From: Phyllobacterium phragmitis
GTDB taxonomy: Bacteria > Pseudomonadota > Alphaproteobacteria > Rhizobiales > Rhizobiaceae
Length of the DNA: 64,000 bases
Reading direction: 5' to 3'
NCBI RefSeq assembly: GCF_002980495.1
Contig: NZ_PVBR01000002.1
Span: 186,001-250,000, forward strand
The first letter of the stretch is position 1. Each line of letters opens with the position of its first letter. Of this stretch, positions 4,861-48,149 are shown one piece after another. The translations under genes and the position numbers were made by a program. The notes under the pieces were generated by a model. That model did not search any database, was not told the DNA's origin, and worked only from the letters and a program-made list of their open reading frames with translations.

Positions 4861-4955
4861 CTCGATCGAGCATAGATTCGCGCACGTTAACCCAGTGTCA
4901 TGAGATGTTCATCTGATCGTTGGATGGAGCTATGGCGCTTGAAGGAGGCAGACCG

Positions 4956-5042
4956 ATGGGACTTACACGTTCGCTTAATGTCCTTATGATCTGTGCAGCG
5001 TTCGCATTTGTAGGTGCGATGGTAATGGGCCTTCTCCCGTAA
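4956..5042 (+). CDS. 28-residue hydrophobic small protein
   Basis: A short ORF, MGLTRSLNVL followed by a continuous hydrophobic stretch and ending GLLP. A strong GAAGGAGG ribosome site lies just upstream (4941-4948), and a perfect-stem terminator follows 54 bases after the stop. Residues about 7-27 would form one transmembrane helix after a short basic N-terminus. The gene sits alone between the divergent decarboxylase leader and the convergent metF gene. No function is recognised. The strong ribosome site, single-helix layout and dedicated terminator argue that it is a real small membrane protein; alternatively the transcript could act as an RNA. Confidence 0.6.
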   Translation: MGLTRSLNVLMICAAFAFVGAMVMGLLP

Positions 5043-5096
5043 GGAGGAACCAAGACTGCAGATAGGGGTCTTCAATCATTCAGGGAAGCTAAAAGG

Positions 5097-5126
5097 AAAA
5101 AGCCCGGCACAGCGTCCGGGCTTTTT
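5097..5126. terminator. Bidirectional intrinsic terminator
   Basis: Stem agcccgg (5101-5107), 8-base loop, ccgggct (5116-5122). A run of T follows on the plus strand and a run of A precedes it, so it can end both the small-protein transcript (plus) and metF (minus, stop at 5147). Confidence 0.85.
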
Positions 5127-5146: not shown

Positions 5147-6100
5147 TCACGCGGCCGCGCCCGCCAGATCGGGGCTCAGGGATTTGCCAGTCCCAGCCTC
5201 CGCCCCCTGCTTTTGCGGGCGGATGCCGATCAGATGGCAGATGGCGAAAGCGAGGTCCGCCCGGTTCATCGTATAGAAATGGAAATCCTGCACGCCGCGC
5301 TCGACCAGATCGAGCACCTGTTCGGCGGCGACGGCGGCGGCGACCAGCGCATGGGTCTGCGGATCGTTTTCCAGCCCGTCGAAGCGCTCGGTCAGCCAGG
5401 CCGGGATATGCGTGCCCGCCCGCGAGCAGAAATTCGTCACCTGCTTGAAATTATGGATAGGCAGCACGCCCGGCAGGATCGGAATATAGATGCCGGCCCT
5501 GCGCACCCGTTCGACATAGCGCTCATAGAGATCATTGTCGAAGAAGAACTGGGTGATCGCCCGCGTCGCGCCGTTGTCGACCTTACGCTTCAGCATGTCG
5601 ATATCGGTGGCGAAGTCGGGGCTTTCGGGATGCTTCTCGGGATAGGCCGAAACGGAAATGTCGAAATCGGCGAAGGCTTTCAGGCCGGCGACCAGTTCGG
5701 CGCCGTTGAGATAGCCGCCAGGCGTCGGCCGGTACTGATCGCCCACACCGCTTGCCGGATCGCCGCGCAACGCCACGAAATGCTTGATGCCCAGCGCCGC
5801 GAATTCACGGATCACCGTATCGACCTCCTCCTTCGTCGCATCGACGCAGGTTAGATGCGCCGCCGGCGTGACATCGGTTTCGTTGAGGATGCGGGCCACG
5901 GTGCGGGCCGTGCGCTCGCGCGTCGAGCCGCCCGCGCCATAGGTCACCGACACGAATTCAGGTTTGAGCGGCGCCAGCCGCGTCACCGTTTCCCAGAGCC
6001 GCTTTTCCATTTCCTCCGTCTTCGGCGGAAAGAACTCGAAGGAGACCCGCGTCGTCTGCCCGATATCGGGACGGCGGGAAAGACCGAAAACACTCATCAA
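5147..6100 (-). CDS. metF: 5,10-methylenetetrahydrofolate reductase
   Basis: A 317-residue flavoprotein of normal bacterial MetF length. It reduces methylenetetrahydrofolate to methyltetrahydrofolate, the methyl donor for methionine synthase. FEFFPPKT near residue 22 is the conserved start of the TIM barrel with its catalytic glutamate. SVTYGAGGS and HLTCVD are typical folate/FAD-site segments, and ALRGDP and PGVLPI are also conserved. It lies 96 bases downstream of an ArsR-methyltransferase fusion gene on the same strand, so the two may be co-transcribed and controlled through S-adenosylmethionine status. Confidence 0.95.
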   Translation of the reverse strand: MMSVFGLSRRPDIGQTTRVSFEFFPPKTEEMEKRLWETVTRLAPLKPEFVSVTYGAGGSTRERTARTVARILNETDVTPAAHLTCVDATKEEVDTVIREFAALGIKHFVALRGDPASGVGDQYRPTPGGYLNGAELVAGLKAFADFDISVSAYPEKHPESPDFATDIDMLKRKVDNGATRAITQFFFDNDLYERYVERVRRAGIYIPILPGVLPIHNFKQVTNFCSRAGTHIPAWLTERFDGLENDPQTHALVAAAVAAEQVLDLVERGVQDFHFYTMNRADLAFAICHLIGIRPQKQGAEAGTGKSLSPDLAGAAA

Positions 6101-6196
6101 ACACTCTCCGTCGCGGTTAGCATTTTGCAGCCGGATGGACTCATCCGGCGTGGCACAAATGCGGCTATAATAAACACTTAGAGCGGTTCTTCTCGA

Positions 6197-44317: not shown

Positions 44318-45694
<1,377 letters not shown>

Positions 45695-45719
45695 AGCAGT
45701 CGAAGAAAAATTGAGGTTG

Positions 45720-45740
45720 AGGGGCCGCAAGGCCCCTTTT
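45720..45740 (+). terminator. Terminator of the aminotransferase gene
   Basis: Stem ggggcc (45721-45726), gcaa loop, ggcccc (45731-45736), then ttttctttt. It lies 26 bases after the stop and separates the gene from the oppositely oriented sRNA. Confidence 0.88.
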
Positions 45741-45789
45741 CTTTTGCCTGCGGTAATGGCCTTGCAGCAGATGTTTAGGAAAAAGGTCA

Positions 45790-45907
45790 AAAAAAAGCCG
45801 GACAAGCTGTCCGGCTTATAGTTTTGAAGGCGCCGTTTCCGGCAAAACCTCCAGAGGGGAACACTCAAGGATGCGCAATGGGAGGAGGAGACGCATCATT
45901 GAGATGA
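45790..45907 (-). ncRNA. AbcR (alpha-r15) family small regulatory RNA
   Basis: On the minus strand a transcript of about 118 bases is predicted. Promoter: CTTGAA at 45936-45941, 17-base spacer, GCATAT at 45913-45918. It ends with a terminator of perfect 10-bp stem, aagccggaca/tgtccggctt (45795-45817), followed by eight T. The body carries gtctcctcctcccattg, strongly complementary to Shine-Dalgarno sequences, and a second cccctctggagg element, the layout of AbcR sRNAs that repress ABC-transporter mRNAs with Hfq. In Sinorhizobium the AbcR genes lie beside lsrB, as here. One copy only is seen. Family call rests on motif and position. Confidence 0.78.
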
Positions 45908-45912
45908 TGTGG

Positions 45913-45941
45913 ATATGCGCGCTTCAGCCCGTTAATTCAAG
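45913..45941 (-). promoter_or_regulatory. Predicted promoter of the AbcR-type sRNA
   Basis: -35 element cttgaa and -10 element gcatat with exactly 17 bases between, close to the alphaproteobacterial sigma-70 pattern cttgac / ctatat. It places the start near 45906, giving the expected sRNA length. Confidence 0.6.
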
Positions 45942-45992
45942 TATACGAAATCGCAAGGCAGCCATGCGTTTACTGCATAGCAAAAAAATCCT

Positions 45993-46010
45993 GAAATTAC
46001 CCTTAATTTC
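45993..46010. promoter_or_regulatory. Perfect dyad between the sRNA promoter and the LysR gene
   Basis: gaaatta, 4-base spacer ccct, taatttc. It lies about 50 bases upstream of the sRNA -35 element, in the range of LysR-type activator sites, and the LysR gene itself ends nearby. Binding is inferred from position and symmetry only. Confidence 0.5.
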
Positions 46011-46186
46011 AAAGGCTTATATGATTATCACGGGAACGTGACTTCTACTGGAGGTGAAAAATCTCAGCCTGAACGGGTATTTTCCTGCCTTCCAAGCGTG
46101 CAACGCAGCATGAATTCGGGCAAATCACTGATGAGAAAAGCAGCTGCCTGCCCGATTCCGCGGCGAAAATCCCGCCACAACGCCGG

Positions 46187-47092
46187 TCAATAGGACCAGG
46201 TCCGCGCCTTGGAAAACAGGAAATCGCGGAAGACATGCAGCTTGGCGGAATTCTTCAGCGCTTCGGGATAACAGAAGAACGTATCGAAGGAGGGTATCTC
46301 CTCCATCTCAGGAAGAAGCTGCACGAGACCGGATTCCTTTTCGACCATATAGTCGGGCAGGACCGCGATGCCGACGCCGCGATGCACGGCGCGCTTGACC
46401 GACAGGAGATTATTGACCTGCAATGTCGGAATGCGTGGATTGCCGTCGCTGCGGCCCGCCACTTCGAGCCAGTTGAGCCCGGTCAGATAGCTCGGGGCCG
46501 GTTCACCGAAAGTCACGATGCGATGTTCGTCGAGTTGGTCCACAGAGGCCAACTTGCCATGCTTGGCAATATAGCTCGCGGCGGCATAGACATGCATGTG
46601 CACGGTGAAGAGACGGCGCTGGATCAAATCCGGCTGCTGCGGCTGACGCAGGCGGATAGCGCAATCCGCATGCCGCATGGTCAAATCGAGTTCCTCATTG
46701 TCGAGGATGAGTTGCAGCCGGACGTCGGGATAAAGCTCGATGAACTCCTGCACCCGCTCGATCAGCCAGCCCGAACCGAGACCGACCGTCGTGGTCACGC
46801 GCAGGCGGCCGGTGGGCTTCTCCCGGCTTTCGGCAAGCCGCGAGCGGACATTTTCGAGCTTCATCAGCACGTCATGCGCAGTGCGGTAGAGTAGTTCGCC
46901 CTGTTCGGTGAGGATCAGTCCACGCGCGTGCCGCTGGAACAGCGGCACGCCGACATCCTGCTCCAGCGCGCTTACCTGGCGCGAGATCGCCGACTGCGAA
47001 AGATGCAGCGTCTGCGCGGCATGGGTGAACGACCCGGCCTCGGCGGCGGCATGGAATATGCGCAGTTTGTCCCAGTCGAGCGGTGCAACCAA
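46187..47092 (-). CDS. lsrB: LysR-type regulator, LsrB/VtlR-like
   Basis: A 301-residue LysR regulator. The N-terminal winged helix is clear (AAAEAGSFTHAAQTLHLSQS, AISRQVSALEQDVGVPLFQR), followed by a periplasmic-binding-like effector domain (GRLRVTTTVGLGSGWL). Position next to trxB, between it and an AbcR-type sRNA, matches Sinorhizobium LsrB and Brucella/Agrobacterium VtlR, which govern oxidative-stress and LPS genes and activate AbcR sRNA. Several cysteines (DCAIRL, FFCYPEAL) could serve redox sensing, as reported for LsrB. Symbol assigned by context and similarity. Confidence 0.82.
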   Translation of the reverse strand: MVAPLDWDKLRIFHAAAEAGSFTHAAQTLHLSQSAISRQVSALEQDVGVPLFQRHARGLILTEQGELLYRTAHDVLMKLENVRSRLAESREKPTGRLRVTTTVGLGSGWLIERVQEFIELYPDVRLQLILDNEELDLTMRHADCAIRLRQPQQPDLIQRRLFTVHMHVYAAASYIAKHGKLASVDQLDEHRIVTFGEPAPSYLTGLNWLEVAGRSDGNPRIPTLQVNNLLSVKRAVHRGVGIAVLPDYMVEKESGLVQLLPEMEEIPSFDTFFCYPEALKNSAKLHVFRDFLFSKARTWSY

Positions 47093-47174: not shown

Positions 47175-48149
47175 CTATTCGGCGGCCTGGCGGATCGGCT
47201 CTTGTGCAGCCAGCCAGCGCTCCGCTTCGAGCGCTGCCATGCACCCCATGCCCGCAGCCGTCACCGCCTGACGGAACACGTCGTCGGTGACGTCGCCGGC
47301 GGCAAAGACGCCGGGAACGTCGGTCGCCGTCGAATCCGGCGCCGTCCACAGATAGCCGTTCGGCTTCTGCTTCAATTTGCCGGTGAAAAGCTCGACCGAG
47401 GGCGCATGGCCTATGGCGACGAAGACGCCATGCGTCTCCAGTTCGCTCACCAGCCCCGTATTGACATTCTTCAGCCGCACCCCGGTGACGGTCGCTCCCA
47501 TGGGCGGCTTGGCCTGCGTCCCGACAATCTCCTCGACGACGCTGTCCCAGATGACCCGGACATTTTCCTTGGAAAGCAGCCGGTCCTGCAGGATCTTTTC
47601 GGCGCGGAAGCCATCGCGGCGGTGGATCACCGTGACCGATTTCGCCAGATGCGAGAGATAAAGCGCTTCCTCGACCGCCGTATTGCCGCCGCCGACGACC
47701 ACGACATCCTTGCCGCGGTAGAAGAACCCGTCGCAGGTGGCGCAGGCCGAGACGCCGCCGCCCATGAACGCCTGCTCACTGTCGATGCCCAGCCATTTGG
47801 CCTGTGCGCCGGTGGCGATGATCAGCGCATCGCAGGTATATTCCGTGCCGGAATCGCCCTTCAGGCGAAACGGCCTGACCGAAACGTCGGCTTCGACGAT
47901 GATGTCATGAATGATCTCGGTACCGACATTTTCAGCCTGCTTGGCCATCTGCTCCATCATCCACGGCCCTTGCACCGTTTCGGCATAGCCCGGATAGTTT
48001 TCCACGTCGGTGGTGATCATCAGCTGCCCGCCCTGCTGCAGACCCGCGATGAGCAGCGGCTTCAGCATGGCCCGCGCCGCATAGATCGCTGCCGTGTAGC
48101 CGGCAGGACCGGAGCCGATGATGAGGACGGGCGCGTGGCGCTGTGACAT
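47175..48149 (-). CDS. trxB: Thioredoxin reductase
   Basis: A 324-residue NADPH-dependent flavoprotein that keeps thioredoxin reduced. The FAD-binding GxGxxG is in [17 protein letters not shown], the redox-active pair is CATC in [13 protein letters not shown], the NADPH site is [16 protein letters not shown], and the closing [20 protein letters not shown] is diagnostic. The LysR gene lies 82 bases downstream on the same strand, so a joint transcript is plausible and suits a redox role for that regulator. Confidence 0.96.

Follow-up and report, generated by a model that had tools for sequence, protein, structure and literature searches.

A putative AbcR1 small RNA gene beside lsrB/vtlR, with a conserved predicted regulator box and related loci in the genus

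Described AbcR systems and the present locus

AbcR is a well-known small regulatory RNA, and its hosts are root- and animal-associated bacteria. Members of the family form three stem-loops and carry unpaired CU-rich anti-Shine-Dalgarno (anti-SD) motifs, according to the sections available of PMC7143759, and several copies of ar15/AbcR per genome are described as typical in those of PMC3712013. In the accessible parts of the work on its control, the LysR-type regulator LsrB/VtlR binds and activates abcR1 in A. tumefaciens (PMC7486931), as does the LsrB ortholog in S. meliloti (PMC8844928), and the box of the regulator is given as GCAT-N3-TG-N3-T in both papers. At S. meliloti abcR1 this box lies at -61 to -49, loss of the predicted motif reduces PabcR1 by a factor of more than 22, and the authors also remark on T-N11-A motifs (PMC8844928).

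The locus that we describe here lies in a window of 64,000 nucleotides, by which we mean the whole stretch of DNA that was analysed, and can be compared with four described systems, each taken from the available portions of the source: (i) As for S. meliloti AbcR1 (PMC8844928), an ar15 RNA stands beside lsrB, with the box GCAT-N3-TG-N3-T and a sigma-70-type promoter with a 17-base spacer; unlike S. meliloti, in which AbcR1 and AbcR2 are in tandem, the gap holds one copy and the others are on other contigs. (ii) As for the A. tumefaciens AbcR1-VtlR/LsrB pair (PMC7486931), the LysR regulator is of the shared family and the box is identical; A. tumefaciens LsrB has four cysteines, whereas the window protein contains two, corresponding to C144 and C273 (PMC11975290). 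(iii) As for Brucella VtlR-AbcR2, trxB, vtlR and an AbcR gene are close together; Brucella VtlR activates an AbcR RNA and DUF1127 genes, and the motif printed for it, CAATGCAGCCATGCA, can be recognised before a DUF1127 gene of the present genome. Unlike in the window, the Brucella annotation places two hypothetical genes downstream of vtlR, with abcR2 antisense to the second, and the vtlR-linked copy is named AbcR2 there, whereas the window copy is AbcR1-type (PMC12595884). (iv) S. meliloti NfeR1 is likewise an anti-SD RNA under LsrB, a control that in the window is predicted; NfeR1 is LsrB-activated and NtrC-repressed, has the box TGCA-N6-GCAT (PMC10746234) and belongs to the other RNA family, ar14, for which the window RNA scores under the cut-off.

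The features of the locus, in window coordinates, are as follows.

45790..45904, minus strand: AbcR1-type sRNA gene (Rfam ar15), from the RF02345 score and the fold, start predicted near 45906
45795..45817, minus strand: intrinsic terminator, 10-bp stem then T-run, from a terminator scan
45848..45862, minus strand: conserved core GTTCCCCTCTGGAGG, with a second CU-rich segment, from the search of relatives
45879..45890, minus strand: anti-Shine-Dalgarno CTCCTCCTCCCA, loop of hairpin 1, unpaired in the fold
45912..45940, minus strand: core promoter, TTGAAT (45940-45935), 17-base spacer, CATATC (45917-45912), read from the sequence
45953..45967, minus strand: predicted LsrB/VtlR box GCATGGCTGCCTTGC, from the match to the published motif and conservation
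45964..45978, minus strand: inverted repeat ATGC-N7-GCAT, overlapping the box and fitting the generic LysR motif T-N11-A, from reading the sequence
45993..46010, no strand assigned: AT-rich dyad GAAATTA-CCCT-TAATTTC, exact, from the first-pass annotation; probably not an LsrB site
46187..47092, minus strand: lsrB/vtlR ortholog, LysR-type regulator of 301 aa with Cys144 and Cys274, 492 bits to PDB 9HH1
47175..48149, minus strand: trxB, thioredoxin-disulfide reductase, upstream of the LysR gene, TIGR01292 at 394 bits (cut-off 343)

The small RNA and the adjacent LysR protein

The first-pass annotation of this DNA had read an AbcR-type sRNA in the gap and proposed an Rfam covariance search as the check. 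Run over the whole window, that search bears the reading out: ar15 (RF02345) matches the minus strand at 45904-45790 with 56.5 bits, above the cut-off of 40 (E 7.6e-9), the model is covered in full (1-112), and this is the one ar15 match in the window, with no second copy beside it that would make an AbcR1-AbcR2 tandem. The fold predicted for the RNA 45909-45790 has an energy of -46.3 kcal/mol (z -5.7), a value equalled by 0 of 200 shuffles, and consists of three hairpins and an unpaired CU-rich linker. The loop of hairpin 1 is CUCCUCCUCCCA, and it holds at 45890-45879 the strong anti-SD stretch that had been pointed out. The three stem-loops, the unpaired CU-rich anti-SD motifs and the end terminator that mark the ar15 family are all present. 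The size of about 118 bases given earlier agrees with a predicted start near 45906, and the 10-bp terminator stem stands at 45817-45795; the run of eight T said to follow it holds in part, since two of these T belong to the stem. By family score and fold, the predicted sRNA is an ordinary member of the known AbcR/ar15 family, and the earlier identification of the RNA is to that extent correct. Elsewhere in the window, positions 4937-5124 (plus strand) match Rfam Atu_C9 (RF02503), a Rhizobiales sRNA, with 46.5 bits (cut-off 40).

For the LysR protein, the first PDB match is 9HH1 at 492 bits, and the next best reaches 110 bits; 9HH1 is the structure of A. tumefaciens LsrB, so named in the part of its paper available (PMC11975290). 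A thioredoxin reductase gene also lies upstream of vtlR in B. melitensis, in the available text of PMC12595884. At the level of protein similarity and gene order, this score and the trxB synteny support the LsrB/VtlR identity proposed before for 46187-47092. Aligned to A. tumefaciens LsrB, Cys144 and Cys274 correspond to its C144 and C273, and C236 and C244 of that protein have no counterpart in the window protein. Among the named relatives (the best 80 of 555 from a search with the LysR protein), Cys144 is kept in 80/80, and position 274 is Cys in 56/80 and Ala in 24/80. The protein is 96% identical to each of its counterparts from Paramesorhizobium deserti and Phyllobacterium salinisoli; judged from this protein alone, the species would lie near those two.

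The predicted regulator box and the rival readings of the gap

A minus-strand promoter with 17-bp spacing had been claimed and is present, though TTGAAT-17-CATATC is a weak match to the sigma-70 consensus and a strict sigma-70 scan returned no promoter in 45600-46200. When the window is aligned with eleven named relatives, the TTG and CATAT of this promoter prove conserved. The transcription start at 45906 is assumed, six bases past the -10 element, and coordinates of the box relative to the start depend on that assumption. Upstream of this sigma-70-type, weak-match promoter lies the published LsrB/VtlR box: GCATGGCTGCCTT, at 45967-45955 on the minus strand, matches GCAT-N3-TG-N3-T exactly. 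It falls at -61 to -49 if the start is 45906, an agreement with S. meliloti PabcR1, as given in the part of that paper available, that is not independent, the start being assumed. In the overlapping inverted repeat ATGC-N7-GCAT, the ATG of the left arm and the GCAT of the right arm are invariant in the twelve aligned rows (the window and eleven relatives); in the larger comparison of relatives described next, the Mesorhizobium rows mostly do not have the left arm in that form.

The core GTTCCCCTCTGGAGG is found near the LysR gene, in the flanks examined and with at most one mismatch, in 66 of the best 80 (of 555) named relatives. The exact box lies 98-108 bases before this core in 63 of the 66 (it is missing from L069, L079 and L083), against a mean of 1.0 and a maximum of 5 in a single-base shuffling control of 200 rounds on the same 66; the relatives share descent, and the counts are not independent. 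Three further loci (L030, L032, L033) have the box and an sRNA core with a deletion. No core was found in the 4-kb flanks of 11 of the 80, which are labelled Brucella, Ochrobactrum or Rhizobiales (one of them, L036, gives a single chance-like match with three mismatches), and adjacency of the sRNA and lsrB is therefore not universal. The L032 record is labelled Bacillus subtilis; its lsrB-box-AbcR locus is nearly identical to Pseudochrobactrum loci, and on this sequence likeness the record is probably mislabelled.

We consider it highly probable (roughly 0.88) that 45904-45790 encodes AbcR1, that it is activated by the neighbouring LsrB/VtlR through the box at 45953-45978, and that it lowers transporter mRNAs. 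The RNA and protein families, the box, and its position and conservation come directly from the analysis, and transcription, binding, activation, targets and Hfq are drawn from published relatives. In this mechanism the minus strand would encode a trans-acting anti-SD sRNA of the ar15 family; LsrB/VtlR would bind the predicted box, whose published part lies at about -61 to -49, and once bound would activate the poor sigma-70-type promoter; and the unpaired CU-rich segments of AbcR1 would pair, probably with Hfq, with the ribosome-binding sites of transporter mRNAs and lower their expression. For targets and Hfq this follows what is described for relatives in the available part of PMC7143759. 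If the reading is right, a known regulator-sRNA pair is extended to a species close to Paramesorhizobium deserti and Phyllobacterium salinisoli, and the corrected binding position tells which bases a gel shift or a mutation should target.

The alternative that fares best concerns the AT-rich dyad at 45993-46010, which would, together with a T-run, be a weak terminator, or a hairpin at the 3' end of the LysR mRNA, with no relation to AbcR1. This is unlikely, yet it deserves some weight. On the minus strand the dyad forms a nine-pair stem with a loop of four, followed by GA and seven T, and the hairpin has -5.2 kcal/mol (z -2.4), equalled by 5 of 200 shuffles; against this, the stem is nearly all A-U and the hairpin is not conserved in relatives. 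The terminator scan does not report it, which says little, as that scan demands three G-C pairs. The dyad was also considered as a conserved lsrB terminator and judged unlikely, since the relatives differ.

It is improbable that the sRNA is constitutive or under another sigma factor, with LsrB a mere neighbour. The three other ar15 copies of the genome, which have TTGAA-type promoters and lack the box, would suit such a view, but the fixed spacing of the box in the 63 of 66 relatives (among the best 80 of 555) speaks against it, as does the dependence of orthologous sRNAs on LsrB/VtlR in the accessible accounts (PMC7486931; PMC8844928).

Still less is to be said for the dyad as the primary LysR site, the role proposed in the first-pass annotation. 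The dyad does exist, exactly as written, and is a perfect 7-bp palindrome; such perfect inverted repeats with loops of 3-10 begin at 108 positions in the 64 kb, 9 of them with a loop of 4. Its GAAAT half stands at a constant distance in six genus members, the window included. Yet GAAATTA-N4-TAATTTC with at most two mismatches occurs in 0/80 named relatives (best 80 of 555), and a search of the 200 bases that precede the core gives it in 5/66 with at most three mismatches and in 11/66 with at most four (among the same best 80). The dyad does not match the published LsrB/VtlR box and lies upstream by 87-104 bases from the start assumed here, against -61 to -49 for the known box in the available part of PMC8844928; a conserved copy of that box is found instead at 45967-45955. 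Comparison with relatives thus moves the predicted LysR site about 35 bases nearer the promoter, and the dyad as the main site is probably wrong; the interval 45940-46020, proposed earlier for a gel shift, happens to cover the box. A local, clade-specific accessory role for the dyad is possible, because five other genus members have, at the same distance, a stretch that starts with GAAAT and mismatches the dyad at 3 to 5 of 14 positions. Between lsrB and AbcR1 there is another short dyad, TCACG-TTCC-CGTGA (window 46028-46041), which is similar in the nearest relatives, L005-L007.

That the window RNA belongs instead to the sister family ar14 (NfeR1) is scarcely credible: the anti-SD loop is common to both families and there is a weak ar14 (RF02344) match of 33.2 bits, but this is short of the ar14 cut-off of 58.8, whereas ar15 reaches 56.5 over 40, and ar14 scores up to 109 at other loci of the same genome.

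Copies of ar15 and recurrence of the box in the genus

The earlier remark that only one copy is visible, and no tandem pair, holds for this gap and fails for the genome (G000), in which ar15 occurs four times, each copy on its own contig, the other three being on C1, C3 and C12. Each of six genus genomes has 3 or 4 copies, 20 in total, of which 18 sort by promoter and sequence, by eye, into three types, every type being present in 6/6 genomes. The window type is the only one of the three with the box, which it has in 6/6 genomes. In the second type the box is found in 0/6 and the promoter reads TTGAA-N17-CCATAT; an RpoH1-type promoter is described for S. meliloti AbcR2 in the part available of PMC8844928, and from resemblance to it only we infer that this type may be RpoH-controlled. 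The third type also has the box in 0/6. The two copies outside the types are L004, in this genome and without the box, and L085, in G005 and with it. Across the family, ar15 scores above the cut-off in 65/101 genomes, the present one included, under stricter filters by which weak matches are lost. The fourth copy of the genome, L103 (G000:C3:344696-344801), scores 45.8 bits, has one change in the core and lies beside MEKHLA and CNNM/CBS genes.

The box pattern GCATRGSTGNNNTGC was searched in the six genus genomes, with the pattern read backwards as control. G000 to G005 gave 6, 9, 8, 6, 10 and 8 matches (47), and the control 3, 3, 2, 2, 1 and 2 (13). Window-type ar15 copies (6), DUF1127-ar14 loci (12) and the extra ar15 L085 (1) account, by position, for 19 of the 47. 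The other 28 are away from the described sRNA loci and number about twice the 13 of the control; some of them are possibly further targets.

There are 36 ar14 matches in the six genomes, and 33 are counted after exclusion of three weak ones that lie on window-type ar15 copies. A DUF1127-like gene, recognised by its amino-acid pattern, lies within 1 kb upstream of 16 of the 33, and in all 16 cases that gene is preceded, on the opposite strand, by GCAT-N3-TG-N3-TGC. These 16 matches fall into 12 loci, of which every genome has two (in G000 on contigs C1 and C14); since the six genomes are closely related, the loci cannot be counted as independent events. One DUF1127-like protein, checked by Pfam, is DUF1127 at 55 bits (cut-off 23.3). 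Neither a DUF1127-like gene nor the box was found within 1 kb of the other 17 matches, four of which score under the ar14 cut-off. On contig C1 the site reads CAATGCAGCCATGCA on the DUF1127 strand, which is the VtlR motif printed for Brucella in the accessible part of PMC12595884.

The available sections of the literature report DUF1127 genes as VtlR targets in Brucella (PMC12595884), activation of the ar14 RNA NfeR1 by LsrB in S. meliloti (PMC10746234), and DUF1127 genes beside CcsR-like sRNAs in alphaproteobacteria (PMC10253847). A literature search returned neither NfeR1 together with DUF1127 nor alpha-r15 with AbcR and a covariance model, and VtlR, DUF1127 and ar14 were not found there as one unit, which the full text of the cited primary works may nevertheless hold. 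Control of both RNA families by LsrB is already in print through NfeR1, so only the DUF1127-ar14 arrangement would be mildly new.

We tentatively propose, at somewhat less than even odds, that in this genus LsrB/VtlR jointly switches on AbcR1, from its own promoter, and the ar14 RNAs, which would lie downstream in two DUF1127 transcripts started at the box, with the other ar15 and ar14 copies controlled otherwise. As the box recurs before the DUF1127-ar14 loci, joint control of AbcR1 and these transcripts by a single LysR protein is a testable prediction. If true, one redox-type signal would release both anti-SD RNA families and the small arginine-rich DUF1127 proteins.

Two single loci may be added. 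At L101 (G000:C1, about 5443-6112) a DUF1127 gene has an LsrB/VtlR-type box upstream of it and an ar14 RNA downstream; past the box lies a second ar15 copy, which shares the strand of the DUF1127 gene. L085 (G005:C7:214226-214335), the extra ar15 copy, has its own box and scores 114 bits, the next best in the genus being 74, and was possibly acquired from another lineage.
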